DNA from: Desulfatitalea sp. | GTDB taxonomy: Bacteria > Desulfobacterota > Desulfobacteria > Desulfobacterales > Desulfosarcinaceae | Assembly (NCBI GenBank): GCA_013041835.1 | Contig: JABDRH010000412.1 | Location: 1-13,931, forward strand | Direction: 5' to 3' | DNA: 13,931 nt | Shown: in pieces, positions 594-13,556 of the stretch | Numbering within the stretch: the stretch's first letter is position 1 | Layout: each line of letters opens with the position of its first letter | Notes under the pieces: model-generated | Databases searched by the model: none | The model's input: only the letters and a program-made list of their open reading frames with translations | What the model was told of the DNA's origin: nothing | Program-made: the position numbers and the translations under genes

Positions 594-1337
594 CTATCTG
601 TTCAGTTCCATCTCTCGCAGAAAAATGTTCGCCGTGCTGATCATCTCCCAGCTTACGGAATAAGTTTTCTTCAGATCCCTTAAAAACGTGGTGTAAAAAA
701 ACACAGGGGTGCCGTCGGGCAGGCCCAGGGATTCAGCCATATCGTCCGTGCACAAAAAGGGAAGCAAAGACTCTTTTATCTTTATGGGCGCCGACTCTAT
801 CCATTGGGTTAGACCGATAATGATCTGCTTTGCGGAATCGTCGTCTTTAAACCCCATTTTTTTCGTCCATTTTTCGGGAAAGTAAAACGTCATCAGCGCC
901 TTGAACCGCAGTTGCCCGGTGAAAACGATGCGGCAATAAAGCCTTAACAACCGCTGATTGACTGCGTCCCCGCTCAGTTCCATGAGCCCCACCAGGCGGG
1001 GATTGGGCGTGGTCCACTCCCGGCAGAACTCTTCGATGTTGGCGGTCTTTACCTCGGGGAAGGTCTTTCTGGAACTGATCAGCGTTGCCAGATCAAAAAA
1101 GTGCAGTTCCAGCGTTTCGGGAACCGTGGTCCCCCATCCTTGTTTTTTCGTCAAGAGCCCCTCGGCCTCCAATAGATCGAGACTTTTCCGAACGCTGGTC
1201 TGGGACATGCCATGTTGGCGGGCAAGCTCCTCGATAGTTCCTATTTTCTCGCCCCTTGGGATCTCTCCGCGAATAATGTCCTGCTTGAGCTTGTGATAAA
1301 CGCGGAAAAAAAGCGGAATGTTCTGACCTAAGGCCAC
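594..1337 (-). CDS. GntR-family transcriptional regulator (HutC/UTRA type)
   Basis: The 247-residue product has an N-terminal winged helix-turn-helix at about residues 9-75. It shows the family pattern YHKLKQDIIRGEIPRGEKI, then ELARQHGMSQTSVRKSLDLL as recognition region, then EAEGLLTKKQGWGT as wing. Residues about 95-245 fit a UTRA ligand-binding domain (for example FKALMTFYFPE and GTPVFFYTTFLRD). The start is GTG at 1337-1335, chosen because GGAGA sits 8 bases upstream. Known relatives repress catabolic operons and are released by a pathway metabolite. Here the gene is divergent from the eleven-gene CoA/Fe-S operon across a 389-base region containing several palindromes, so it is the likely local regulator of that operon and of itself. 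The ligand cannot be read from sequence; a CoA ester or its free acid is a guess. Confidence 0.88.
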   Translation of the reverse strand: MALGQNIPLFFRVYHKLKQDIIRGEIPRGEKIGTIEELARQHGMSQTSVRKSLDLLEAEGLLTKKQGWGTTVPETLELHFFDLATLISSRKTFPEVKTANIEEFCREWTTPNPRLVGLMELSGDAVNQRLLRLYCRIVFTGQLRFKALMTFYFPEKWTKKMGFKDDDSAKQIIIGLTQWIESAPIKIKESLLPFLCTDDMAESLGLPDGTPVFFYTTFLRDLKKTYSVSWEMISTANIFLREMELNR

Positions 1338-1520: not shown

Positions 1521-1546
1521 TTGACAGCTAATAAAATGAATGTCAA
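1521..1546. promoter_or_regulatory. TTGACA / TGTCAA inverted repeat, candidate operator or -35 region
   Basis: TTGACA (1521-1526) and its exact reverse complement TGTCAA (1541-1546) face each other across 14 bases, just after a T9 run. Each half also resembles a -35 hexamer on opposite strands, so this may be the core of the divergent promoters or a regulator site overlapping them. Confidence 0.4.
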
Positions 1547-1726: not shown

Positions 1727-2905
1727 ATGAATACACAGACCGAGCAGACCGACATACGGCCGAGTGCCTTGGAGGAACTGCTGACACTGCCCCTACGGGG
1801 TGAAAATCCGTATATTCTGGATTGGAAGGCCAACGGGGGGAAGGTATTTGCCTATGTTTGCAGCTACGTTCCCGAGGAAATTATCTATGCCGTCAAGGGG
1901 GTGGCAAAATCTAGATATCTGCCGGTTCGCCTGGGTGCCGCTGGCTGCAACAATACGGAAGACGCCGACATCGATCTTTCAAGGTGTTTGTGCAGCTTTG
2001 CCCGAAGTACGCTGCAGATGGGCCTCGACGGCGCGTATAGTTATCTTGATGGCCTGGTATTCAGCAGCAGTTGCGAGCAAATGAGACGCTCCTTCGAGTT
2101 CTGGAGGGATAAGCGCCATCCCGATTTTCTTGCGATGATTTCGGTTCCCCGCACCACCGACACCAACGCGCATTTCGAATGGTATCTCGAGGAAATCAAC
2201 AACGTACGGACAAAATTTGGACAAAAATACGGGCTGTTGTCGTCCAAGGCGGCGTTAAATGAAACCATCGCGATTTACAACCGGTTCCGGGAACTCATGC
2301 TGACGATTTATGCGTTAAGGCTGGGGGATGCCCCCAAGCTGACGGGAACCCAAGCTTTGAAAATCGCCCAGGCCGGCTTCAATATGCCCAAGGAGATTTT
2401 CAACACAAAACTGGAAGCCGCCATCGAAGAGATCATGCAGCGGCCGGGTATCACCGATTACCGCGCCCGTGTGCTTTTGGCCGGAAGCCCCGTCGACGAT
2501 CCGGCGCTGGTTGAGATCATCGAGGGCACCGGCGCGCTGGTGGTCACCGATGCCCTGTGCACCGGCAGAAAATTCATCGAGGGGATGGTGGATGAGGGCT
2601 CCGACGATCCGGTCAGGGCCATTGCCAAACGATACTTTTCAAAGGAAACCTGCCCTCGCATGATGGATGGCACCGATTCGCGGGTGGCCTACGTGAAGCG
2701 GTTGGCCAAGGAGGCCAACGTTGACGGTGTGATTTTCCAATACATTACCTTCTGCGACAACCACAATATCGAAAACATTATTGAATCGCGTGCTTTGGAA
2801 AAGGAAGGCATTCCAACCCTTACCCTGGAAAGGGAATACCAGCCCAAGGACGTGGGCCGGCTTCGAACGCGTGTCCAGGCATTCATGGAGAGAATCAATA
2901 AGTAA
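1727..2905 (+). CDS. 2-hydroxyacyl-CoA dehydratase/benzoyl-CoA reductase-type Fe-S protein, small subunit
   Basis: The 392-residue product has the HgdB/BcrC fold signatures in order: YVCSYVPEEIIYA with Cys45, PVRLGAAGC with Cys74, RCLCSFARS with Cys87 and Cys89, YLDGLVFSSSCEQMRR with Cys116, and the C-terminal VIFQYITFCDNH with Cys343 followed by EKEGIPTLTLEREY. These cysteines are the expected Fe-S ligands of the family. The active cluster accepts a high-energy electron from an ATP-driven activator and passes it to an acyl-CoA. The start is well set by AGGAGG 6 bases before ATG. Length fits HgdB or BzdN/BcrC-type subunits. It is the first operon gene and partners the next one. I cannot tell whether the reaction is 2-hydroxyacyl-CoA dehydration or reduction of a ring or enoyl thioester; a double-cubane cluster protein is a third option. 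The product is soluble, with no signal peptide or membrane segment. Confidence 0.87.
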   Translation: MNTQTEQTDIRPSALEELLTLPLRGENPYILDWKANGGKVFAYVCSYVPEEIIYAVKGVAKSRYLPVRLGAAGCNNTEDADIDLSRCLCSFARSTLQMGLDGAYSYLDGLVFSSSCEQMRRSFEFWRDKRHPDFLAMISVPRTTDTNAHFEWYLEEINNVRTKFGQKYGLLSSKAALNETIAIYNRFRELMLTIYALRLGDAPKLTGTQALKIAQAGFNMPKEIFNTKLEAAIEEIMQRPGITDYRARVLLAGSPVDDPALVEIIEGTGALVVTDALCTGRKFIEGMVDEGSDDPVRAIAKRYFSKETCPRMMDGTDSRVAYVKRLAKEANVDGVIFQYITFCDNHNIENIIESRALEKEGIPTLTLEREYQPKDVGRLRTRVQAFMERINK

Positions 2906-2948
2906 ACAATTCTCAGCGGTTATCCCGGTTGTGGAAGGAGGCAATAAA

Positions 2949-4379
2949 ATGGCGAATCGTGAACTGGAAAAATACGAGTTTCTTCAACGGCTGGACGTCA
3001 CCTGTGACCTGTTTGCAGGCATGTGCAGCCGAGGCTGGATGACGCCGGAAGAGCTTTTCGACAACATCGATATCCTTTTCGACGATATCGTGAAAGCGCA
3101 TGGTCATGACAAGGCATATCTTCAGAGCGTGGTGGACAATGTGCATCCGGACCTGGCCGAATCCTTGTTGAAGCCCAAACATGATTTGGACGTGGTCCAC
3201 TTCGGCAAGGCGCTGAAAGGATACACCACGGCGCTGAACGATCATCTGGCCGCGGGCAAGCCGGTGGTATACAGTTTTCCCACGCTGACCTCGGAGATCT
3301 GGTATGCCATGGATATCGTTCCGCTGCACTTCGAATTGTTGTCCGGGCTGCTTTCCGGTGTCTATATCACCGGTGTCGAGGCGGAAGCGGACGCGGCCGC
3401 CAAGGAGGGATTCGGCGACCATATCTGTGGATTCACCAAAGGTCCCATCAAGTCCATCGAAATGAACAAGCTGCCCAAGCCCGATATTCTATGTAAAAAC
3501 GGTTCGCCCTGCGACGCCAGCAATCTGAATTACGTCTACGCCGCCGACCTGCACGACTGTCCGCTGCTGGTGTTGGACTCGCCGTATTACAGCGATGATC
3601 GGGCCCTGAAGTACTACACGGAAAACATCATGGAAATGCTGTCCCAGGTGGAAAAGCTGATCGGGCACAAGATCGACGAGGACAAACTGCGCTATCACGT
3701 GGACATCAGCAACCAGCAGCTCAAATACTACTACGGCCTTCAAGAATTGCGCAAGCTCAGGCCCTGCCCCGATCCCGGCACACTTCGCTTTTTGGATTTC
3801 GGATCATTGGCCATTTGCGGCCATTCGGAAAAGGTGATCGATTATTGCAAGGGACGATATGATCGCGTCAAAGCCCGCGTCGACAACAACGAAACGTTCC
3901 TGCCCGAAGGCAAGGAAGAGATTCGCACATTGTGGTCCTGGGGCTGGATCGCCAACATGTGGTGGCTGCCGGACTGGCTGGAAGACCAATTCGCCTCGAC
4001 CTACATGGAATGTCAGCTCTCCTACATGCCGGGGGACGTGGTCGGGTATGTGGATACCACCAGTTTAAAGACGATGATCGAGGGGCTGGCATGGCGCTCC
4101 ATCAACTTTTGCATGCACAAGACGGCCATGAGCTATTCGGATATCTGGGTCAACGATTTTCTGAGTATCGCCCAGGCCTACAAGGCGGATGTGGCCCTGT
4201 TCGGCGGCAACCGAGCCTGTAAGCATGCCTGGTCCCTTTCCAAGATTTTAAGCGATCTGCTGATGGAAAAGTGCGGCATACCCAGTTTCATCTGGGAGCA
4301 CGATGTGTGCGATAAGCGCTACACCACCCACAAGGCCACCAAGGACATGTTGACCGAGTTTTTCAGCAGTATTTCGTAA
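2949..4379 (+). CDS. 2-hydroxyacyl-CoA dehydratase/benzoyl-CoA reductase-type Fe-S protein, large subunit
   Basis: The 476-residue product belongs to the same superfamily as the preceding gene. Recognisable segments are VYSFPTLTSEIWYAMDIVPLH (about 107-127, shown here as two joined motifs VYSFPTLTSE and IWYAMDIVPLH), GDHICGFTKGPIK with Cys160, LCKNGSPCDASN with Cys182 and Cys188, FGGNRACKHAW with Cys424, and the terminal GIPSFIWEHDVCDKRY with Cys454. The family's CSYVP cysteine of the partner is replaced by Ser-Phe-Pro here. Six tryptophans fall between 329 and 343. The start at 2949 has GGAAGGAGG just upstream; a longer in-frame ORF from 2781 overlaps the first gene and has no such site. Size is close to HgdA (about 54 kDa) and a little larger than BzdO/BcrB. 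It should form a heterodimer with the small subunit; the substrate is unknown. Confidence 0.85.
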   Translation: MANRELEKYEFLQRLDVTCDLFAGMCSRGWMTPEELFDNIDILFDDIVKAHGHDKAYLQSVVDNVHPDLAESLLKPKHDLDVVHFGKALKGYTTALNDHLAAGKPVVYSFPTLTSEIWYAMDIVPLHFELLSGLLSGVYITGVEAEADAAAKEGFGDHICGFTKGPIKSIEMNKLPKPDILCKNGSPCDASNLNYVYAADLHDCPLLVLDSPYYSDDRALKYYTENIMEMLSQVEKLIGHKIDEDKLRYHVDISNQQLKYYYGLQELRKLRPCPDPGTLRFLDFGSLAICGHSEKVIDYCKGRYDRVKARVDNNETFLPEGKEEIRTLWSWGWIANMWWLPDWLEDQFASTYMECQLSYMPGDVVGYVDTTSLKTMIEGLAWRSINFCMHKTAMSYSDIWVNDFLSIAQAYKADVALFGGNRACKHAWSLSKILSDLLMEKCGIPSFIWEHDVCDKRYTTHKATKDMLTEFFSSIS

Positions 4380-4443
4380 ACTTCACGTTGATGGTGATGG
4401 CACCAAAAGCCCATTGACGCGCCAATAAGCCAGGAGAAGCAAG

Positions 4444-5217
4444 GTGATACTCGGATGCGATATCGGCACGGGATACACAAAGGCGGTGGTGATGGACAAG
4501 GGCGAGTATCTTTACGGCGCCCATGTCCCCACCAATGCGGACCCCAATGACGCCATGGCGCGCGTGCTCACGGCCATTGAGACGGCCCAAGGCGTTGCCG
4601 CCGACGACATGGAAAAAATAGTCATCACCGGTTGGGGCGCGGGCAATGTCACGTTGCCCCACGAAGAGGCGCCCATCATGAAGAGCCTGGCCCGGGCGGC
4701 CCTTTGGGATGTGCCCGGCTGCAAAAATGTGCTCTGCATGGGCGCCCAACAGACCGCCATGCTGGCGCTCAACGACAAAGGCATGGTGCTGAACTACCGG
4801 CTGAACGACAAATGCGCCTCCGGTGCCGGGGCGTTTTTGGAGATCATCTTCGAGGCGTTGGAGTGCGATTACGACAACAGCGCCGATATCGCGCGCGCGG
4901 CGGACAAGCAAATCACCATGAGCAGCCAGTGCGCCGTGTTCGCGGAAAGTGAAGTGGTAAGCCTGGTCAACGATGGGGAATCGGTGGCCAATATCCTGAA
5001 CGCCATCTTTCGATCCATCGTCTCCAGCACGCGCACCCTTTCCAAGCGGATCAAGATCCTCGGCGATGTCGTGATCTGCGGCGGCCTGGCCAACAACACC
5101 CGCATCGTGGAGTTGGCGCAAGAGGCGCTGGAGACAAAACTGCACGTGTTTCGGCCACGTGCGGATTATATCGCGGCCGTGGGGGCCGCCCTGAGCCTGA
5201 ATGGAGGGCGAAAATGA
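4444..5217 (+). CDS. Activator ATPase of the HgdC/BcrAD family, divergent (activator 1)
   Basis: The 257-residue product has the ASKHA-type fold of acyl-CoA dehydratase activators: phosphate-1 motif GCDIGTGYTKAVVM (4-17), NDKCASGAGAFLE with Cys124, SSQCAVFAESEVVSLV with Cys163, and C-terminal ICGGLANN and YIAAVGAALSL. The two cysteines, 39 residues apart as in HgdC, should bridge one 4Fe-4S cluster between two protomers. Unlike activators 2 and 3, the phosphate-2 motif DIGGQD is replaced by CMGAQQ (98-103), so nucleotide handling may be altered and the protein may work as the non-catalytic half of a heterodimer with the next gene. The GTG start is supported by AGGAGA 6 bases upstream. It overlaps the next gene by four bases (ATGA), which suggests translational coupling. 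Confidence 0.87.
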   Translation: MILGCDIGTGYTKAVVMDKGEYLYGAHVPTNADPNDAMARVLTAIETAQGVAADDMEKIVITGWGAGNVTLPHEEAPIMKSLARAALWDVPGCKNVLCMGAQQTAMLALNDKGMVLNYRLNDKCASGAGAFLEIIFEALECDYDNSADIARAADKQITMSSQCAVFAESEVVSLVNDGESVANILNAIFRSIVSSTRTLSKRIKILGDVVICGGLANNTRIVELAQEALETKLHVFRPRADYIAAVGAALSLNGGRK

Positions 5218-6023
5218 TCTTCGCAGGCGTGGACGTCGGTTCCATGAGTGCCGAGGCGGTGTTGTTCGACGGCGAAAAAATACGCGCCCATTCGACCATC
5301 GTCGTTAAGCCCAACCCGCTTCAATCCGCCACCATCGTGATGGATACGGTGCTGGAAGAATCCGGTCTGACCTACGACGATATCACCTATTGCGTGAGCA
5401 CCGGTTACGGACGTGAACGAATCCCTTTTGCCCAACACGATGTCTCCGAGATCTCCTGCCATGGCAAAGGGGCCGTCTGGGCGGCGCCAACGGTAAGGAC
5501 GGTCATCGATATCGGCGGCCAGGACAGCAAGGTGATTCGGGTCGACGAAAACGGCGACATGCAGGATTTTGTCATGAACGACAAATGTGCGGCGGGAACG
5601 GGGCGTTTCTTAGAGGGGATCGCCAGGACCTTTCATCTGCATGTATCGGATCTGGGGCAATTGGCCCTCGAGGGCACCGACCCGGCGCCCATCAACAGCC
5701 TATGCACGGTCTTTGCGAATTTCGACGTGATGTGCATGCTGGCGGAAGGTCAAACCAAGGAGAACATCGCCTTCGGCGTTTCCAATGTCCTGGCCAGACG
5801 GGTGTTTTCACTGGTCAGCAGAGTGGGGCTGGTGCAAGACATTTGCGTCACCGGCGGCGTGGCCAAAAACCAGGGGGTGGTGCGTTCGCTGGCCCATGTC
5901 ATGGAAGTGCCCATTCAAAAACTGCCGGTGGATTCTCAGATCGTCGGGGCCCTCGGCGCCGCGCTTTTCGCCTGCCGGCGATACGAGCGGTTGCGCATGG
6001 AAGAAAAAAATCTGGCCAATTAA
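5214..6023 (+). CDS. Activator ATPase of the HgdC/BcrAD family, canonical (activator 2)
   Basis: This 269-residue protein shows every motif of the 2-hydroxyacyl-CoA dehydratase activator/benzoyl-CoA reductase ATPase family: FAGVDVGSMSAEAVLF (phosphate 1), VSTGYGRERI (61-70), VIDIGGQDSKVIRV (phosphate 2, 97-110), MNDKCAAGTGRFLE with Cys125, SLCTVFANFDV with Cys164, CVTGGVAKN (adenosine motif, 211-219) and DSQIVGALGAALFA. The paired cysteines bind the dimer-bridging 4Fe-4S cluster. ATP hydrolysis drives transfer of one low-potential electron to the two-subunit enzyme encoded upstream. The start ATG overlaps the stop of activator 1, so the two are probably made in equal amounts and may form a heterodimer like BzdP/BzdQ. 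The palindromic repeat copy 2 begins on the base after its stop codon. Confidence 0.92.
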   Translation: MIFAGVDVGSMSAEAVLFDGEKIRAHSTIVVKPNPLQSATIVMDTVLEESGLTYDDITYCVSTGYGRERIPFAQHDVSEISCHGKGAVWAAPTVRTVIDIGGQDSKVIRVDENGDMQDFVMNDKCAAGTGRFLEGIARTFHLHVSDLGQLALEGTDPAPINSLCTVFANFDVMCMLAEGQTKENIAFGVSNVLARRVFSLVSRVGLVQDICVTGGVAKNQGVVRSLAHVMEVPIQKLPVDSQIVGALGAALFACRRYERLRMEEKNLAN

Positions 6024-6125
6024 GGGCTCGCGCATAAATACGTTCAGCATTTAGACGCGCGGATTTGGGTCAAACCCGGTTCGATCTGAGGGCTCAAAAC
6101 CCAAGGAATAACGAGCTATTTTGAT
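6024..6125. repeat. Half copy of the palindromic repeat element (copy 2)
   Basis: The stretch starts with GGGCTCGCGCATAAATACG and continues with CAGCATTTAGACGCGCGGA, TTTGGGTCAAACCCGG and TCGATCTGAGGGCTCAAAAC, matching the reverse complement of the right arm of the repeat at 1-178. It runs through the centre (GAGCTATTTTGA) and then loses similarity. It therefore represents one arm plus the loop of the element. It directly follows the TAA of activator 2 and occupies most of the 125-base gap before activator 3. With only one arm it should not form the long hairpin, which fits continued transcription into activator 3. Confidence 0.75.
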
Positions 6126-6148
6126 ATTGAAGACAGGAGCCATCCTTC

Positions 6149-6970
6149 ATGCTCTTTGCAGGCATCGACATCGGTTCTTCCAGCGCTCAGGCGGTGTTGT
6201 TCAATGGCGAAAGGATCGTTTCCTGGGCGTCGATGGCGGCTCGCCCCATTCCCGAGCAATCCGCAAGGCTCGTTTTGGATGCGGCCCTGAAAAAATGCTC
6301 CGCCTCCGAGGAAGACATCGATTTTTGCATCAGCACCGGTTATGGGCGTGAGAAAATCTCTTTTGCCTTGGACAATGTCTCAGAAATCTCATGCCTGGTC
6401 AAAGGCGCTTTCCGGCTGAATCCAAACACGCGCACCCTCATCGATATCGGTGCTCAGGACAACAAGGTGATCCGGGTGACCGCTGACGGCCGGCTGCAAG
6501 ATTTCGTCATGAACGACAAGTGCGCCGCCGGGTCCGGCCGTTTTTTAGAAAGAATCGCCAGGACTTTCGGACTTTCGATTTCAGAGTTGGGGCCGTTGGC
6601 CCTGCGCGCGGACCAACCCGCGCCGATGCAAAACAGTTGCCCTGTCTATGTCGCTTTCGATGCCTTGAGCCGCATGGCCGAAGGATGGACCAAGGCGAGC
6701 ATCGCCCTGTCCGCCGCCCATATTTTGGCCAAGCGGCTGATCGCCGGATCACGCAAGTTCAACATCGAGCAGGCGCTGTGCCTCACCGGCGGCGTCGCCA
6801 AAAATGAGGCCGTGGTAAAAGCCCTCGAAGCATTTTTAGGCCTGCCGATCCAACCATTGCCCGTTGATTCGCAGATTGTAGGGGCGTTGGGGGCCGCTAT
6901 ATTCGCCCAGGATCAATATGACAGTGCTGTCGGGAGCCGAGCGGAGATAAACTATGGAATGTGTCGATAG
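6149..6970 (+). CDS. Activator ATPase of the HgdC/BcrAD family, extra paralogue (activator 3)
   Basis: This 273-residue protein aligns with activator 2 without gaps over the first 255 residues, with 138 identities by hand count (about 54%). It keeps FAGIDIGSSSAQAVLF, ISTGYGREKI, LIDIGAQDNKVIRV, MNDKCAAGSGRFLE with Cys125, Cys164, CLTGGVAKN and DSQIVGALGAAIFA. The surroundings of the second cysteine differ: NSCPVYVAFDA instead of SLCTVFANFDV. It looks like a tandem duplicate of activator 2 that has diverged at the cluster and partner-contact region. AGGAG lies 9 bases before ATG. The C-terminus overlaps the start of the next gene by 17 bases. It may serve a different acceptor enzyme, replace activator 1 or 2 in an alternative dimer, or pair with the CooC-like protein; none of these is shown. 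Confidence 0.9.
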   Translation: MLFAGIDIGSSSAQAVLFNGERIVSWASMAARPIPEQSARLVLDAALKKCSASEEDIDFCISTGYGREKISFALDNVSEISCLVKGAFRLNPNTRTLIDIGAQDNKVIRVTADGRLQDFVMNDKCAAGSGRFLERIARTFGLSISELGPLALRADQPAPMQNSCPVYVAFDALSRMAEGWTKASIALSAAHILAKRLIAGSRKFNIEQALCLTGGVAKNEAVVKALEAFLGLPIQPLPVDSQIVGALGAAIFAQDQYDSAVGSRAEINYGMCR

Positions 6971-7727
6971 CGGACAAATCATCGTCGTCGGTGGCAAGGG
7001 CGGCGTGGGAAAAACCAGCGTTTCGGCCATGATCGTCAAGCTGCTATCCCAAAAAAACCAACGCCTCCTGGTCATCGACGCCGATCCGGTGATCAGCCTC
7101 ACCCATGCCTTGGGTGAAACGCCCGTCGAGACCATCGGAAACTACCGTGAAAAGGTCATCCACAGCGATGAAGAAAAACGAACGCTTCTCAAGCGCCCCA
7201 TGAAAACCATCATCCGCGAGATGATGATGCACAATGACGGCCGGTTCGATCTGCTCACCATGGGACGCGCCGAAGCCAAGGGATGCTTTTGCGGCACCAA
7301 TGAGCTGCTTCGCCACGGCATCGAGTCGCTTTGCGGCGAATACGATACGACGCTCATCGACTGCGAAGCCGGCATCGAGCAGGTGAACCGGCGGGTGGTT
7401 CACCATATCGACAGCCTTTTGCTGCTGACCGACACCTCGCGCACCGGCATGCTCACCCTTACCCAGCTCAAGGATATCGCCGTGCAGTGCAACGAAGGCC
7501 GCCCCATATCAGTCAACGTTCTGGTCAACCGGCTGCGCCATCAGGCGGAAGAAGACGGCGTGAACCAAATGGCGACCGATTTTGGCCTGACGGTCATCGG
7601 GGCAATCCCCGAAGACCCAAGCGTTCGCGAGTTCAACCATGCCGGCCGGCCGCTTTTGATGTTGCCCGACGATTCGCCGGCCGTGGCGGCCCTGCAGACG
7701 ATATTGGCCAAGGTCGGGCTTTTATAA
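6954..7727 (+). CDS. CooC-like P-loop ATPase (SIMIBI class)
   Basis: The 257-residue product has a deviant Walker A GGKGGVGKTS (13-22) with the signature lysine Lys15 of the MinD/ArsA/NifH class. LVIDADPVISLTHALG (39-54) is the switch I region and TLIDCEAGIEQVNRR (133-147) matches the CooC family. AKGCFCGTNELLR contains the CxC pair Cys111/Cys113, which in CooC binds a metal at the dimer interface. CooC proteins load nickel into CO dehydrogenase, but no CODH gene lies in the window. Here the gene overlaps activator 3 by 17 bases and has its own GGAGA site, so it belongs to the dehydratase/reductase operon. Plausible roles are metal or Fe-S delivery to the Fe-S enzyme or a further ATP-driven electron donor; both are inference. 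No signal peptide or membrane segment. Confidence 0.88.
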   Translation: MECVDSGQIIVVGGKGGVGKTSVSAMIVKLLSQKNQRLLVIDADPVISLTHALGETPVETIGNYREKVIHSDEEKRTLLKRPMKTIIREMMMHNDGRFDLLTMGRAEAKGCFCGTNELLRHGIESLCGEYDTTLIDCEAGIEQVNRRVVHHIDSLLLLTDTSRTGMLTLTQLKDIAVQCNEGRPISVNVLVNRLRHQAEEDGVNQMATDFGLTVIGAIPEDPSVREFNHAGRPLLMLPDDSPAVAALQTILAKVGLL

Positions 7728-7771
7728 ATGTACTTCAAACCCAACACTCATGGCGTGAAAGGAGACCCATC

Positions 7772-8560
7772 ATGCGGCTAAAAGACAAAGTGGCGGTCAT
7801 TACCGGGGCCAGTCAAGGTTACGGAATGCAAATTGCCAAAGGATTTGCCAGGGAAGGCGCCGATATCGCCATTTGCGCCAGAAGCATCGATAAGCTGGAA
7901 GCCATTGGCCAGGCGATCCGGGAAGAGACCCGTCAAAAAGTACTCCCGGTGAAAGTGGATATCACTTCCCAGGCCGATGTGGGACAGTGTTTTCAAACCA
8001 TCGCCGACCAATTCGGCCGCATCGACATCCTGGTCAACAACGCGGGCGTCTTTCCGCCGGCCAGCATCCTCACCCTGACCGAGGCGGACCTGGACATGGT
8101 GTTCAACCTCAATCTCAAAGGCACTTTCTTCTGCACCCAGGCGGCGGCCAAGCAGATGGTCAAACAAAACAGCGGCAACATCGTGACCATTGGCTCCACC
8201 CAAAGCCGCCTGAGCTGGACCCAGAACTGGAACAATCCGGCCATCCCCATGGAAGCGCTGGTCATGTCCCCCTATTCGGCTTCCAAAGGCGGGCTTCTCG
8301 CAGCCACCCGGGACTGGGCCGTGGAATTGGGGCAGTATAACATCCGCGCCAATTGCATCGCCATGGGGGTGTTCCCAAGCGAAGAACTGCGGGCCGCCTT
8401 CCCCGAAGTGGTGATGGAATATATCCGTGAACAAACCGCGTTGAAGAAACTGGGAGATCCCGCGGACGTCGTGCCCATGGTGCTGTTTCTGGCCAGTGAC
8501 GAAAGCGAGTACATGACCGGACAAACCATCTCCTATGACGGGGGATGGGCCATGCCCTAA
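7772..8560 (+). CDS. Short-chain dehydrogenase/reductase (SDR)
   Basis: The 262-residue product is a classical SDR: TGASQGYG (11-18) as the dinucleotide-binding glycine motif, D63 in the VDIT segment, NNAG (89-92), FNLNLKG with Asn114, a catalytic Ser at 142, and YSASK with Tyr168 and Lys172. The C-terminus MTGQTISYDGGW is typical of 3-oxoacyl reductase or cyclic alcohol dehydrogenase subfamilies. The Ser-Tyr distance is 26 residues instead of about 13, so a roughly 13-residue, Trp-containing insertion lies next to the active site and may shape substrate choice. The start at 7772 follows AAAGGAG; the longer ORF from 7331 is a shadow of the CooC-like gene. In this operon it likely oxidises or reduces a hydroxyacyl-CoA or alicyclic alcohol intermediate with NAD(P)H. 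Confidence 0.93.
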   Translation: MRLKDKVAVITGASQGYGMQIAKGFAREGADIAICARSIDKLEAIGQAIREETRQKVLPVKVDITSQADVGQCFQTIADQFGRIDILVNNAGVFPPASILTLTEADLDMVFNLNLKGTFFCTQAAAKQMVKQNSGNIVTIGSTQSRLSWTQNWNNPAIPMEALVMSPYSASKGGLLAATRDWAVELGQYNIRANCIAMGVFPSEELRAAFPEVVMEYIREQTALKKLGDPADVVPMVLFLASDESEYMTGQTISYDGGWAMP

Positions 8561-8618
8561 AACGTTCGCGCATACACAAGCATTGAAGTTGTCCACACAT
8601 CCAGGAGAGATCAGGGGA

Positions 8619-10163
8619 ATGAACCTTTCAGCAGACATGGAGGCCAGGGCCGCCGAAGCGCCGGACAGAATCGGCCTGACTTTCGAAGACGGCAGCGAAT
8701 ACACCTACGGCCAGATCAATCGCAAGAGCTGCCAGATCGCCAATTACCTCGTATCCCAGGGGGTGGGGCCCGGAGACCGGGTGGGCGTCTACATGCAAAA
8801 CGCGCCCGCTTTCTTGTTCATCATCTTCGGTATTTGGAAAACCGGCGCCGTGTTGGTCCCCATCAATATCATGTACCAGGCCCAAGAGCTTATCCATGCC
8901 GTCTCCTCTACCCATGTGGACACCGTCATCACCGATGCCAACGGCATCGAGCGGCTGTTGACCATCAAGGAGAACTTGAACACCATCATGGTCGCCGGCG
9001 GCCTGCCCGGTACGCTTCCGGCGCATGTCATCGATTTTGACGCCCGGGTGTCGGACCAAAAAGCGGCCTTCGACAGCTTTGTCCCCGGGGAACAGGACGT
9101 GGCGGCCATCATGTTCACCGGCGGAACCACCGGGGCGCCCAAAGCCGTCATCACCAACCATATGGGGTGGTATAAAGCCTTGTGCGATCTGGCCGGCGGA
9201 CACACGGGCAACCAAGCCCGCCATCCCATCGCCGACGACCGCATACCGCCCAACCTGGTGGCCATGCCCCTGTTCCACGGCGGCGGCCAGCAGAGTATGC
9301 TGTTTGCCTATCATATCGGCCGCTCCGTTCTGCTCATGGAGCGCTTCAAGGCCGGAAAATACCTCGCCCTGGCCAAAAAATACAACGTCCGCAGCCTGGT
9401 GTTGATGCCCACCATGATTCACGACATCGTCAACTACGACGGCGACGCCGACCTGCGCCACGTCCGGACGGTGACCTCCATCGGCCAGGAATTGCGCCCG
9501 CTGCTCAGAAGCCAGTTCGAAGAAAAGTTCAACATTCCCATCTTGATGAACTACGGCTCCACCGAAGTGGGGCATGTGGCCGGCTGGGGCGTCAAGGACC
9601 TTAAAAAAGGACTGTGGAAACCGGGCTCGGTGGGCAAGCTCTACCCGGGCGTCACACTGCAGATTCGGGGTAAGGACGGCGCCCCGCTGCCGGCCGGCGA
9701 GATCGGAGAAATATTCGTCAAAAGCACCGTCACCACCAAGGGCTACGCGGGCAATGCCGAAGAGAGCAAATCATTGCTCCAAAACGGATGGATCTGCACC
9801 GGCGATATGGGGTGTTTGGACGAAGACGGCGTGCTTTTCATCAAGGGCCGCAAACGCGAAATGATCAAATGCGGCGGCTTTCAGGTGTGGCCCCTGGAAA
9901 TCGAGAAAGTACTCATGAAACACCCGAAGATCAATGACGTGGCCGTGGTGGGCGTTCCCGATGACCGCATGGGAGAAATCCCCAAGGCCTTTATCATCTT
10001 ACAGCAAGGAACCCAGGCGGATTCGAAAGAGATCATCGACTACTGCAGGGACAACCTGGCCCACTTCAAAGCCGTCAGGGCCGTGCAATTCGTCGATGCA
10101 TTTCCACGGGCGGATACCGGCAAGATACTCAAGGAGAAGTTGAAGGACAATGATAACGGATAG
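8619..10163 (+). CDS. AMP-dependent acyl-CoA synthetase (ANL superfamily)
   Basis: The 514-residue enzyme carries the adenylation motifs in order: IMFTGGTTGAPKAV (164-177, ATP phosphate loop), MNYGSTEVG (310-318), WICTGDMG (391-398), FIKGRKREMIKCGGFQVWP (407-425, hinge and CoA-binding switch) and PRADTGKILKEKL with Lys502, the adenylation lysine. It activates a carboxylic acid with ATP and CoA, giving AMP and pyrophosphate, and so is the likely entry step of the pathway. The start at 8619 has AGGAGAG about 9 bases upstream; the in-frame ATG at 8535 lies inside the SDR gene. Family signatures do not reveal whether the acid is aromatic, alicyclic or medium chain. It lies 58 bases after the SDR. 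I do not call it a benzoate-CoA ligase. Confidence 0.93.
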   Translation: MNLSADMEARAAEAPDRIGLTFEDGSEYTYGQINRKSCQIANYLVSQGVGPGDRVGVYMQNAPAFLFIIFGIWKTGAVLVPINIMYQAQELIHAVSSTHVDTVITDANGIERLLTIKENLNTIMVAGGLPGTLPAHVIDFDARVSDQKAAFDSFVPGEQDVAAIMFTGGTTGAPKAVITNHMGWYKALCDLAGGHTGNQARHPIADDRIPPNLVAMPLFHGGGQQSMLFAYHIGRSVLLMERFKAGKYLALAKKYNVRSLVLMPTMIHDIVNYDGDADLRHVRTVTSIGQELRPLLRSQFEEKFNIPILMNYGSTEVGHVAGWGVKDLKKGLWKPGSVGKLYPGVTLQIRGKDGAPLPAGEIGEIFVKSTVTTKGYAGNAEESKSLLQNGWICTGDMGCLDEDGVLFIKGRKREMIKCGGFQVWPLEIEKVLMKHPKINDVAVVGVPDDRMGEIPKAFIILQQGTQADSKEIIDYCRDNLAHFKAVRAVQFVDAFPRADTGKILKEKLKDNDNG

Positions 10164-10188
10164 GACATTTTAGCCAGGATAAGTGCGG

Positions 10189-11205
10189 ATGGGCGATACC
10201 AAACAAATTTGGGTGATCGGGGGACGCGACGGATACACCATCGGCGACGAAACCCTTGAACTGATGACCGAGGCCCACGACATGGCCAAGAAGACAGATT
10301 GCCGGATCACCGTGGTGATCTTCGGCGAGGCCCTGGACGAAACCATCGCCCTTCTGGCCGGGCGGCGCATAGCCGACCGCCTGGTGACCTTCGAAGCCGC
10401 CGCCTACCGCCATTACGACCCTGCCGCGTATATGGCGGCATTGGCCCAGTTGGCCCAAACGCAGCCGCCCGACATCGTTCTGGCCCCAGCCACTTCCATG
10501 GGACGGGACCTGGCGCCCCGCCTGGCCTTTCACCTGGGAGCCCAGCTGATTTCCAATATCCAGCAGATCCAGCTCACCCCCGCGGCAAAGATCAAGATCG
10601 TAAAACCCGTGTATGGCGCAAAAGCCAATGCCACGGGAAATGTGCCTGACGACGCGCCCCTCGTTGTCACCGTAATCCATGGCGTGATCGGTGTGGGCCG
10701 AACGAAGGGAAGTAAAGCGACGCAGATCGACCGGCGATCGCCCCCGGGCACCGCATCCCAAGCCCTTGCCTCCGGCTACCAGGTCTTGGAATTCATCGCA
10801 GCCGACCCCAGGACCATCGACATCGTCGATGCGGATGTCGTGGTCGCCGGCGGAAGAGGCGTCGGCGGCAAAGACGCGTTCGAGACGGTAAAAGCGTTTG
10901 CCTTTTTAATCGGCGGCGCCGTAGGCTGCAGCAGGCCTATTGTCGATGACGGCATACTGCCGCTCGACCGGCAGATCGGCCAGACCGGCAAAACCGTGGC
11001 CCCGGACCTTTTCGTCTCGTGCGGCGTCTCCGGCGCCATGCAGCATGAAATGGGCATGAAGGACGCCAAGTACATCATCGCCATCAACACGGATAAAGAC
11101 GCGCCCGTGTTCAGGATCTCGGACTACAAAGTCGCATGCGACGTCAACCGACTGCTGCCGGCAGTGATCAAGGAAATACACGGAAGAAGTATCGAGGAGC
11201 ATTGA
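10189..11205 (+). CDS. etfA: Electron transfer flavoprotein, alpha subunit
   Basis: The 338-residue product has an N-terminal Etf domain and the strongly conserved C-terminal FAD domain. The motifs are VVAGGRGVGGKDAFE (218-232), GCSRPIVDDG (246-255), RQIGQTGKTVAP (261-272), CGVSGAMQHEMGM (278-290), and IAINTDKDAPVF (297-308). It binds FAD and, with EtfB, carries electrons between acyl-CoA dehydrogenases or reductases and another redox partner. ATG at 10189 is preferred to GTG at 10183 because AGGA (10176-10179) is 9 bases from the ATG but only 3 from the GTG. The gene precedes etfB, the reverse of the commonest etfBA order. No acyl-CoA dehydrogenase lies in the window, so its partner may be the Fe-S protein two genes downstream and the Fe-S enzyme at the operon start. 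Confidence 0.95.
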   Translation: MGDTKQIWVIGGRDGYTIGDETLELMTEAHDMAKKTDCRITVVIFGEALDETIALLAGRRIADRLVTFEAAAYRHYDPAAYMAALAQLAQTQPPDIVLAPATSMGRDLAPRLAFHLGAQLISNIQQIQLTPAAKIKIVKPVYGAKANATGNVPDDAPLVVTVIHGVIGVGRTKGSKATQIDRRSPPGTASQALASGYQVLEFIAADPRTIDIVDADVVVAGGRGVGGKDAFETVKAFAFLIGGAVGCSRPIVDDGILPLDRQIGQTGKTVAPDLFVSCGVSGAMQHEMGMKDAKYIIAINTDKDAPVFRISDYKVACDVNRLLPAVIKEIHGRSIEEH

Positions 11206-11212
11206 ACGACCC

Positions 11213-12079
11213 ATGATCATCGCGACGATCATACGGCAGAGTCATTTTTTCCATTCCGGCGCCATCGGCATCGACCCCATGGACAACGAACTGGTGCGCG
11301 GCAACCTGCTTACGGCCATCAACCCTTATGATGAATCCGCCCTGAACATGGCGCTGTATCTGAAAGAGCACCATCCCGGGGTGCATATAATCGGGATCAC
11401 CCCGCGCGCCGAACAGGCCCAAGCGTTTATCGACCAAGCCATATCCTTGGGAGCCGACGAAGGCGTCATCCTGGACATGGAACCGACCGACGCCGCCGGC
11501 GCCGAACAACGCGCGAAACAGTGGTCGCTGGGCTTGAAGACCCTGGACTTTCAACTCCTGCTGCTCGGCGTCAAGGAGATGGACCGGTGTGAAGACGAAT
11601 TCGGCATTTACCTGGGCGCCCATCTTAACCTGCCGGTGATCAGCGGCATCAAGACACTGACATTGACGCAAGCTGGAGAAGTTCAAGCCGTGAGAAAACT
11701 GGAAAAAGGACACGGCGAACGGGTGAGCTGCCGCCTTCCCGCAGTACTGACCGCCGAAGCCACCGGCCGGTACCGGTATCCGACCCTAAAAAGCATCGCC
11801 CAACCCAAAAACACCCGCGTCATCCACATACCCGCGCCAACCGGTGACACGCAAGAGAAAATGCCGGCAGTAGCGCTAAAAAATCTTCGTCCCCCCAAAG
11901 TACGGCCCAAAAAAGGATTGGTGGAAGTCGACAGCAGCCTCTCCGTGACCGACAAGCTGAGCCAACTGTTCAGCGGTGGTGTGACAGAGAAAAAAGGGAC
12001 CGGTGACATCCTGACCGGTGCGCCCGATCAAGTGGCCAAAACCCTGGTGGCGCATATGCAGGACAAAGGATTCATTTAA
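11213..12079 (+). CDS. etfB: Electron transfer flavoprotein, beta subunit
   Basis: The 288-residue product shows the EtfB hallmarks: AINPYDESALNMAL (35-48), the nucleotide-binding loop GVKEMDRCEDEFGIYLGAHL (119-138), and LPAVLTAEATGRYRYPTLKS (175-194) matching the family PAVLTV...PRY pattern. It is somewhat longer than the usual roughly 255-residue EtfB, with a C-terminal extension after RPKKG (231-235) running to residue 288. Whether it is an electron-bifurcating Etf, with a second FAD in EtfB, cannot be settled by eye. The start is 7 bases after etfA; GAGGAG is 13 bases upstream, a long spacing, so translational coupling to etfA is likely. The next gene starts on the base after its stop. 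Confidence 0.92.
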   Translation: MIIATIIRQSHFFHSGAIGIDPMDNELVRGNLLTAINPYDESALNMALYLKEHHPGVHIIGITPRAEQAQAFIDQAISLGADEGVILDMEPTDAAGAEQRAKQWSLGLKTLDFQLLLLGVKEMDRCEDEFGIYLGAHLNLPVISGIKTLTLTQAGEVQAVRKLEKGHGERVSCRLPAVLTAEATGRYRYPTLKSIAQPKNTRVIHIPAPTGDTQEKMPAVALKNLRPPKVRPKKGLVEVDSSLSVTDKLSQLFSGGVTEKKGTGDILTGAPDQVAKTLVAHMQDKGFI

Positions 12080-13240
12080 ATGAGCAGTACAACCCAGAGC
12101 CGCGCGGTGCTGGCCACCGGGGCGGTATCCCGGCTCGTCGGCGAACGCGGAAATGAAACCTTCCGTAAATGTATGCAGTGCGGGACCTGTTCGGCGCTAT
12201 GCCCCTGGACAGATATACCCGGGCACCCGTTTAACATCAGACGCCTCATTCAACAGGTGGCCTTCGGCGACGAAGGATTCGAACACGACGACATATTGTA
12301 TGCCTGCACCACCTGCCGGCTGTGTGAATCCATGTGCCCCCGCGGCGTTGAATTGGTGGATTTCGTCCGCACCATGCGGCAATTGGTGACCCAGACCGGC
12401 TTTTATCCCAACGCGTATCGGGAAGTGATCTACAGCTTGCGCACCTTCGGCAACCCGTGGTCCCAGAAAAGAGAAAACCGCCTGTCCTGGAAAAAGGACC
12501 TGCGCATCCCCACCTATAAAAAAGGAACCGACTATTTGCTGTTTGGCTGCTGCACCAACGCCTTCGATCCGGACCGCCAGCGCAGCCTGTACGCATTTGC
12601 ACGCCTATTGCAGCAAGCCGGCGTCTCTTTCGGCATCCTGGGAAAGGAAGAGACCTGTTGCGGTGAATCAATCCGAAAAATCGGCGCGCAAGAAGATTTT
12701 ACGGCATTGGCCCAACACAACACCGATATATTCCTCGAAAAGGGCGTTGAAACCATCATTACCCTGTCCCCCCATTGCCACCACATCTTCAAAACCGCCT
12801 ACCCGGACCTGGCCGCCCAGGTCAAGATCATTCACTACACCGAGATGCTGGAAACACTTCTCGCCGATGGCCGGCTCACTCCCCGTGAACAACCCCCCAT
12901 CAACGTCAGCTATCACGACCCCTGCTACCTGGGCAGACACACAGGCATCTATGACGCCCCGCGCAACATCATCCATCACATCCAGGGCGTGCAACTGGTG
13001 GAGCTGCGCAAAAACAAAAAATACAGCCAGTGTTGCGGCGGCGGCGGCGGCCGCATCTGGATGGGCGGCGACAGCGGCAAGCTGGCCAACGTCCGGGTCC
13101 GCGACGCCATGGACAAAGAAGCCGAAACATTACTGACGGCCTGCCCCTACTGCACCAGCATGCTCGACTACAGCGCCACCGTGCTCGGCGGCCAAATTCG
13201 GGTAATGGACTTGGCCGAATACGTGGCGACCTGCGTTTAA
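12080..13240 (+). CDS. HdrD-like Fe-S oxidoreductase (two 4Fe-4S motifs, two CCG domains)
   Basis: The 386-residue product starts with two CxxCxxCxxxC motifs: Cys31/34/37/41 followed by Pro, and Cys76/79/82/86 followed by Pro. It continues with two cysteine-rich CCG domains. The first has Cys157-158, Cys193-194 and Cys233 but lacks the final CxxC. The second is complete, with Cys282, Cys318-319 and Cys355/358. This is the layout of HdrD, GlpC and LldE/LutA-type electron carriers; full CCG domains can hold a non-cubane 4Fe-4S cluster. Unlike membrane-bound Etf-linked Fe-S oxidoreductases, it has no hydrophobic segment, so it should be soluble or peripheral. Its place directly after etfAB suggests it is the Etf's redox partner, linking to a disulfide, a quinone module or the activators. 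Last operon gene; no obvious hairpin terminator follows. Confidence 0.92.
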   Translation: MSSTTQSRAVLATGAVSRLVGERGNETFRKCMQCGTCSALCPWTDIPGHPFNIRRLIQQVAFGDEGFEHDDILYACTTCRLCESMCPRGVELVDFVRTMRQLVTQTGFYPNAYREVIYSLRTFGNPWSQKRENRLSWKKDLRIPTYKKGTDYLLFGCCTNAFDPDRQRSLYAFARLLQQAGVSFGILGKEETCCGESIRKIGAQEDFTALAQHNTDIFLEKGVETIITLSPHCHHIFKTAYPDLAAQVKIIHYTEMLETLLADGRLTPREQPPINVSYHDPCYLGRHTGIYDAPRNIIHHIQGVQLVELRKNKKYSQCCGGGGGRIWMGGDSGKLANVRVRDAMDKEAETLLTACPYCTSMLDYSATVLGGQIRVMDLAEYVATCV

Positions 13241-13434: not shown

Positions 13435-13556
13435 CGTATAGAGTTTTATCCGTAGTCCCGCCCCCAAAAGTGTTACAGTGCAGGCTCAATCACAATAAAG
13501 GTTATCAGCTCGGTGAATGATCCAACTCATCGGGATTGCGGATAAAACTCTATACG
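13435..13556. repeat. 122-bp segment bounded by perfect 18-bp inverted repeats
   Basis: CGTATAGAGTTTTATCCG (13435-13452) is matched exactly by its reverse complement at 13539-13556. The 86 bases between contain no gene. Such ends suit a MITE or solo mobile-element remnant, but no target duplication is evident at the edges. It lies just upstream of the brnT remnant, so a regulatory hairpin is an alternative. Confidence 0.6.

Follow-up and report, generated by a model that had tools for sequence, protein, structure and literature searches.

A conserved gene set for a putative class-I-like acyl-CoA reductase with a CooC-type ATPase in Desulfatitalea and relatives

Class I benzoyl-CoA reductases function outside the redox window usual in biology and serve as a model for Birch-type chemistry. 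BzdNOPQ (structure 8s02) combines a pair of HGD-D proteins (PF06050), the small subunit encoded first, with two activases; six cysteines of its small subunit hold an [8Fe-9S] double cubane and three of its large subunit a [4Fe-4S] cluster, next to an acid/base pair formed by Glu65 and His131. HadBC (3o3m), a dehydratase with the same fold in both subunits, also has a three-cysteine large subunit, and the double-cubane cluster protein (DCCP/YjiM, 6eno) is a homodimer. The P-loop ATPase CooC (3kje) is known from CO dehydrogenase (CODH). Here we describe a gene set from Desulfatitalea sp. that occupies most of the 13,931-base contig JABDRH010000412.1 (C302 in our numbering; the whole contig is hereafter called the window), part of a 4.3-Mb genome in 693 contigs that is 86.9% complete. 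Eleven genes (Table 1) encode, in this order, the small and large subunits of an HGD-D pair, three activases (ACT1 to ACT3), a CooC-like ATPase, a short-chain dehydrogenase/reductase (SDR), an acyl-CoA ligase, EtfA, EtfB and an HdrD-like Fe-S protein. We hold with moderate confidence that the core of this run (1727-7727) encodes an ATP-dependent, class-I-like acyl-CoA reductase of its own clade, equipped with a dedicated CooC-type ATPase and acting on a hydrophobic cyclic acid. A clade of this kind, which shares the electron-storage cysteines but has another acid in the active site and a CooC-type helper of its own, would be a natural experiment on the catalytic histidine and on cluster making. 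It would also provide concrete genes for an unassigned step in how sulfate reducers and their relatives degrade hydrophobic cyclic compounds anaerobically.

The HGD-D subunits and their relatives

The two HGD-D proteins score 293 and 145 bits against PF06050 and, in structural alignments with BzdNO, are about 30% (small subunit) and 16-18% (large subunit) identical. All six cysteines that hold the BzdN double cubane are kept in the small subunit, a combination found in 0 of the 11 Bcr/Mbd/Had-type rows of our alignment, and the large subunit keeps the three cluster cysteines together with the glutamate equivalent to BzdO Glu65 (Table 1). The Fe-S label given to this pair in a preliminary description of the window thus holds in the form of cluster-ligand cysteines in both subunits, and the likeness in order to bzdNOPQ, with two subunits followed by two activases, is confirmed as well. 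In contrast with BzdO, Trp46 is not kept and His131 is replaced by serine in the window as in all 24 rows of its large-subunit clade.

Both subunits fall into clades of their own. In the small-subunit tree (76 rows, with a length limit of 250 aa and the 166-aa fragment L073_67 left out), the window belongs to a 34-row clade (support 99/94) separate from BzdN (14 rows), from the Bcr/Mbd/Had group (11 rows) and from DCCP/YjiM; two truncated rows (L058_39 and L069_1) show three of the six cysteine sites. In the large-subunit tree (56 rows), it belongs to a 24-row clade (100/99) separate from BzdO, BcrB-type proteins, HadB and DCCP, with a deeper branching order that is unsure because of long branches (DCCP, HadB, L092 and others). 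Three genes occur twice under different names (L064_8 and L100 in the 11-row group, L018_23 and P0068 in the 34-row clade, L018_2 and P0026 in the 24-row clade). These trees draw on protein searches that scored the 7998 best candidates and gave 34 large-subunit matches (30 in alignment A2, 12 in the tree) and 884 small-subunit matches (120 listed, 22 in the tree). Mbd references stand in the small-subunit tree only, HadBC is the sole dehydratase, and HgdAB, BadDE and thn sequences are not among the references. Against this set (BzdNO, Bcr-type, Mbd, Had and DCCP), neither subunit falls into the clade of a reference, so that the outcome named in the preliminary description as a refutation did not arise. 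The small subunit also stays below the cut-offs of the corresponding profiles, with 208.7 bits for double-cubane NF040772 (cut-off 350), 164 for BzdN TIGR03190 (453.8), 142.8 for HadC NF052456 (700) and 110.1 for BcrC TIGR02263 (421.15), and the large subunit reaches 41 of 750 bits with the HadB profile NF052455 and 37.1 of 350 with NF040772. Since profile scores, clade and the residue at His131 all differ from those of the Bzd type, we do not file the window enzyme as a benzoyl-CoA reductase; as far as the sequence can tell, it works like BzdNO.

The fold shared with HadBC raises the question of whether the pair is instead a 2-hydroxyacyl-CoA dehydratase of the HadBC/HgdAB type with extra activases, in which the electron would be recycled and an (R)-2-hydroxyacyl-CoA made by the SDR and the ligase would be dehydrated. 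We regard this as unlikely: HadC lacks cysteines at two of the six aligned positions (BzdN 36 and 263), whereas the window keeps them all, in the tree it stands with the Bcr/Mbd subunits and not in the window clade, its profile is matched far below the cut-off, and two distinct activase types are conserved around the window pair (see below). A DCCP-like reductase of some small molecule other than a CoA ester, for which the adjoining ligase and SDR would be incidental, appears improbable. The best of the four small-subunit profile scores, that with the double-cubane family, lies below its cut-off, and, unlike the homodimeric DCCP/YjiM, the window encodes a pair of unlike subunits, two activases (three with the duplicate discussed below) and a CooC-like ATPase. 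Because the large subunit has three cluster cysteines and not six, the pair is BzdNO-like. Moreover, ligases adjoin the core in the window and in loci L054, L056 and L057, and lie upstream of it on the L014 and L016 contigs.

Among the small-subunit matches listed, two close relatives come from sources named Acetobacterium wieringae (P0062, 56% identical) and Candidatus Jordarchaeales (P0084, 50%), which may mean that the clade reaches Firmicutes and archaea, or else reflect binning errors. The host genome contains 13 HGD-D matches on nine contigs, counting the window. One of the further sets (L064, contig C67) is preceded by MMPL and DUF1329 homologues.

A five-gene core with a CooC-like ATPase

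All three activases exceed the TIGR00241 cut-off of 125.4 bits. ACT1 and ACT2 form two groups in the activase tree, both kept across the clade, and ACT3 joins the Desulfatitalea ACT2 proteins (Table 1). ACT3 is a local duplicate of ACT2 in the Desulfatitalea lineage and, as it is limited to the two Desulfatitalea operons examined, the third activase is not a defining feature of the system, contrary to what had been proposed.

The gene types conserved between lineages are the small and large HGD-D subunits, ACT1, ACT2 and the CooC-like ATPase. All five are complete in 10 of the 10 loci of the window's large-subunit clade that have enough downstream sequence (the window, L015, L017, L018, L019, L020 and L054-L057). 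They follow the order small subunit, large subunit, ACT1, ACT2, CooC, except that the two activases are reversed in L020, with the ACT2 type first, and that ACT3 is inserted in the window and L015. In L014 and L016 the contig ends soon after ACT2 (followed by a different open reading frame, ORF, in L016), and both contigs also carry a CooC gene, at a distance of 12.4 and 12.8 kb on the upstream side of the core. ORF starts were called too far upstream in L055_18 and in the L018 activase ORF, and ACT1 of L018 was recovered by tblastn. The eleven genes of the preliminary description are all real, but they are not one conserved unit: only the five core types are kept between lineages, and the ligase, SDR, Etf and HdrD-like genes are accessory. 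Desulfatitalea sp. BRH_c12 (L015), whose large subunit is 89% identical, is the nearest relative. The host and BRH_c12 are the only genomes with the large subunit (E <= 1e-60) among 30 of the host's family. Of 395 genomes sampled from the phylum, with at most four candidates scored in each, 42 match the large-subunit profile at E <= 1e-30, eight of them (host counted) at 459 bits or more and the next at 322. A scan of named genomes gave seven loci, including metagenome-assembled genomes named Syntrophobacteria, Binatota and Desulfobacterales.

Of the conserved partners, the CooC-like protein is the most distinctive; the preliminary description overlooked this, as well as the six double-cubane cysteines and the replacement of the catalytic histidine of BzdO. 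The CooC-like protein is a MinD/CooC-type P-loop ATPase (GGKGGVGKTS) whose best match among solved structures is CooC, with which its P-loop and its CxC motif (GCFCG) align. The CxC motif is present in all 15 HGD-linked copies, including the two lying 12-13 kb from the core, and in all four other copies compared. By contrast, an additional cysteine in a D-C-E-A-G segment occurs in 14 of the 15 HGD-linked copies and in none of the four others. No CooC homologue was found in any of 10 control stretches (6.1 to 17.6 kb, several cut by contig ends) around Bcr- and Bzd-type reductases that exceed their family cut-offs (four TIGR02263 and six TIGR03190). CooC-like genes also accompany more distant HGD sets (L061-L063), so they are not exclusive to the window clade. 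In the excerpted text of PMC7306483, CooC and DCCP figure in one paper, in separate gene groups.

The CooC-like protein might simply serve the CODH/acetyl-CoA synthase of the host, its place in the operon being historical, as could be argued from the known role of CooC and from the three other CooC-type genes of the host. We think this very unlikely, considering that the gene adjoins the activases in every testable locus of the clade and that the other three host copies lack the D-C-E-A-G cysteine. The window has no CODH gene. The dedicated ATPase would rather assist in building or repairing a cluster of the reductase. A bolder reading, to which we attach very little probability, is that the system is a separate reductase class, in which the large subunit would hold not a plain [4Fe-4S]-OH2 cluster but a modified, possibly nickel-containing one, installed by the CooC-type ATPase. 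This would explain why CooC occurs together with the serine-for-histidine replacement in every testable clade locus and is missing from the Bcr/Bzd stretches examined; were it true, ring reductions beyond the reach of benzoyl-CoA reductases might be possible.

Two genomes, that of the host included, have a gene for a CdhC-type protein (PF03598, CO dehydrogenase/acetyl-CoA synthase beta) in the neighbourhood of HGD-D genes (L061:2161-2994 and L065:4800-5645).

Substrate clues, proposed reaction and electron supply

When the upstream sequences of the window operon, of its BRH_c12 counterpart and of a second gene run in BRH_c12 are aligned, all three share a palindrome, TTGACA-N14-TGTCAA. The 6.0-Mb BRH_c12 genome has just two such sites, one before each run, and none of the reversed control pattern; the window has one match where 0.02 are expected (at most one mismatch), and the host genome has two sites. 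Since the motif was derived from those same upstream regions, its distribution is support and not an independent test. The second host site (C250:1366) was discarded, as it falls within an ORF and its contig has no ORF matching the BRH_c12 proteins compared.

The second BRH_c12 run, near the core operon, encodes two acyl-CoA dehydrogenases, an amidohydrolase, a crotonase, a ligase and three reductases of the old yellow enzyme (OYE) type, then YCF48, MMPL, DUF1302 and DUF1329 proteins (the MMPL domain was scored on the host copy, 87% identical to that of BRH_c12), with further same-strand genes continuing past DUF1329. In anaerobic monoterpene metabolism, YCF48, MMPL, DUF1302 and DUF1329 proteins make up the hydrophobe cassette AmeABCD (PMC6394551). 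Part of this run is found on host contig C589, with OYEs 73% and 76% identical to those of BRH_c12. OYE2 homologues of at least 73% identity occur in both family genomes with the window operon (partial in the host) and in none of the 28 without it, two of which have homologues of 35-42%. Given that the BRH_c12 operon shares its operator-like site with this OYE/acyl-CoA dehydrogenase/AmeABCD-like run, a hydrophobic cyclic carboxylic acid is probably the substrate of the window enzyme. The best solved match of the three OYEs is 2-naphthoyl-CoA reductase (6qkg; 294.5, 266.6 and 311.8 bits, versus 279.4, 241.3 and 267.0 for 2,4-dienoyl-CoA reductase), and in NCBIfam two are nearest BaiCD and one nearest the mycofactocin OYE 2 family, none of them over the cut-off. 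OYE identity does not decide between polycyclic aromatic hydrocarbon (PAH)-type, steroid-type and alicyclic substrates.

The presence of OYEs nearest to 6qkg beside the BRH_c12 operon would also suit a thn-type tetrahydro-2-naphthoyl-CoA reductase. By Bcr naming, ncrC, ncrB, ncrA and ncrD presumably correspond to small subunit, large subunit, ATPase and ATPase. The review PMC12016498 lists these four genes in that order in the thn operon, describes the reductase as class I and places the N47 and NaphS2 genes near OYE genes. We nevertheless find this identification quite unlikely. The thn gene table of the same review includes ferredoxin and MaoC genes, of which there are none here, the review nowhere uses the word CooC, and the 2-naphthoate:CoA ligase it describes is phenylacetate:CoA-ligase-like, whereas the window ligase is nearest to fatty-acid-type profiles. 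As for benzoyl-CoA, it is a less likely substrate because the host has a separate BzdNO-like set on contig C550 (L069), a candidate class I benzoyl-CoA reductase by its sequence, in which subunits of the BzdN/BzdO clade (the small one cut by the contig end) keep His131 and Trp46 and are followed by two activases.

For the acyl-CoA reductase that we favour, ATP hydrolysis by ACT1 and ACT2 (plus ACT3 in Desulfatitalea) would drive low-potential electrons into the putative [8Fe-9S] double cubane of the small subunit, which would pass them to the three-cysteine [4Fe-4S] site of the large subunit, where the CoA ester would be reduced as in BzdNO. The general acid probably differs from that of BzdO, with the glutamate kept and serine in place of His131. 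The ligase would form the CoA ester, in support of the CoA-dependent route for a carboxylic acid proposed earlier, the SDR may act at an alcohol or ketone step, and the Etf and HdrD-like proteins may serve as electron carriers. The substrate would be a hydrophobic cyclic or polycyclic carboxylic acid of the terpenoid, steroid or PAH type. The open-licence literature, surveyed mostly at the level of listings, yielded no account of this gene set, and to that extent the set remains undescribed, as had been claimed.

The accessory genes vary between lineages. BRH_c12 has homologues of the window SDR and ligase (Table 1), and its Etf genes, only about 30% identical to those of the window, enclose a FixC-like gene and are followed by a gene for a ferredoxin-domain protein. 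All four clade-B loci (L054-L057) have an aldehyde:ferredoxin oxidoreductase (AFOR)-family gene, one of them cut; SCP2 proteins are encoded in three, ligases (as called) also in three, and L057 carries its own Etf pair. The clade-A loci L014 and L016 neighbour genes for acyl-CoA dehydrogenase, CrtI-like, GMC-type and DUF1302 proteins, and L016 also a DUF1329 homologue. From these differing Etf and AFOR neighbours, it seems that low-potential electron supply is solved differently in each lineage. The claim that the module is self-contained is doubtful, since the only other operator-like site of BRH_c12 precedes the OYE/acyl-CoA dehydrogenase run and that genome has the Etf-FixC set in place of the Etf/HdrD part. 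The window does lack a separate ferredoxin gene, as stated in the preliminary description, and its HdrD-like protein carries ferredoxin-type cluster domains. A link with class II reductases (BamB) was rejected, as the AFOR-family protein of L057 scores 539 bits to the aldehyde:ferredoxin oxidoreductase 9mqx and 227 to BamB (4z3w). A recurrent family of 317-408 aa proteins encoded near these loci and others with HGD-D genes (Table 1) has 4Fe-4S domains at the C-terminus, the remainder matching nothing in Pfam, and is a candidate electron donor.

Gene layout and other features of the window

The eleven genes, all on the plus strand between 1727 and 13240 as first described, are separated by -17 to 125 nt, with a purine-rich stretch directly 5' of most starts, and this spacing suggests that they are co-transcribed. 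A scan of the window gave 5 promoter-like sites (shuffle mean 7.7) and 12 terminator-like sites (shuffle mean 15.3), none of the latter reported after 13240; as both counts lie below the shuffle means, they carry no information.

Table 1. Coordinates of the genes and sites discussed (positions in the window unless a locus is given)
Feature	Position	Strand	Evidence
GntR-family regulator, divergent from the operon	594..1337	-	PF00392 57.9 bits; 66% identical to the equally placed GntR of BRH_c12 (L015)
TTGACA-N14-TGTCAA palindrome, candidate GntR operator	1521..1546	.	aligned upstream regions
HGD-D small subunit, 392 aa, BzdN-like	1727..2905	+	six candidate [8Fe-9S] ligands: C45, C89, C116, C278, C309, C343
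HGD-D large subunit, 476 aa, BzdO/HadB-like, N-terminal extension	2949..4379	+	C160, C188, C424 and E129 (BzdO Glu65) kept; S191 for BzdO His131
Activase 1, ACT1 type, GTG start	4444..5217	+	TIGR00241 150.8 bits; tree
Activase 2, ACT2 type	5214..6023	+	TIGR00241 248.6 bits; tree
Activase 3 (ACT3), Desulfatitalea-lineage ACT2 duplicate, 54% identical to ACT2	6149..6970	+	TIGR00241 222.5 bits; tree 100/98
CooC-like P-loop ATPase, CxC motif and extra Cys in D-C-E-A-G segment	6954..7727	+	best solved match 3kje (CooC)
Short-chain dehydrogenase/reductase (accessory)	7772..8560	+	PF13561 187 bits; 82% identical homologue in L015
Acyl-CoA ligase (accessory), nearest profile fatty-acid-type	8619..10163	+	PF00501; NF004837 382.7 bits, below cut-off 476; 78% identical homologue in L015
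Etf alpha (accessory), alternative ATG start 10189	10183..11205	+	PF00766/PF01012
Etf beta (accessory)	11213..12079	+	PF01012
Fe-S oxidoreductase, HdrD/TfrB-like (accessory), N-terminal 4Fe-4S dicluster and two CCG stretches	12080..13240	+	PF02754 (two stretches), PF13183; NF004898 157.6 bits, below cut-off 385
Members of the 317-408 aa family	L086:3849-4991, L019:8744-9967, L061:3120-4196, L087:18255-19205		

Downstream of the operon, a 26-nt inverted repeat spans positions 13435-13556, its arms 92% complementary and 70 nt apart. On the minus strand, an 87-aa ORF (167-430) without family match has, by eye, the look of a small lipoprotein.

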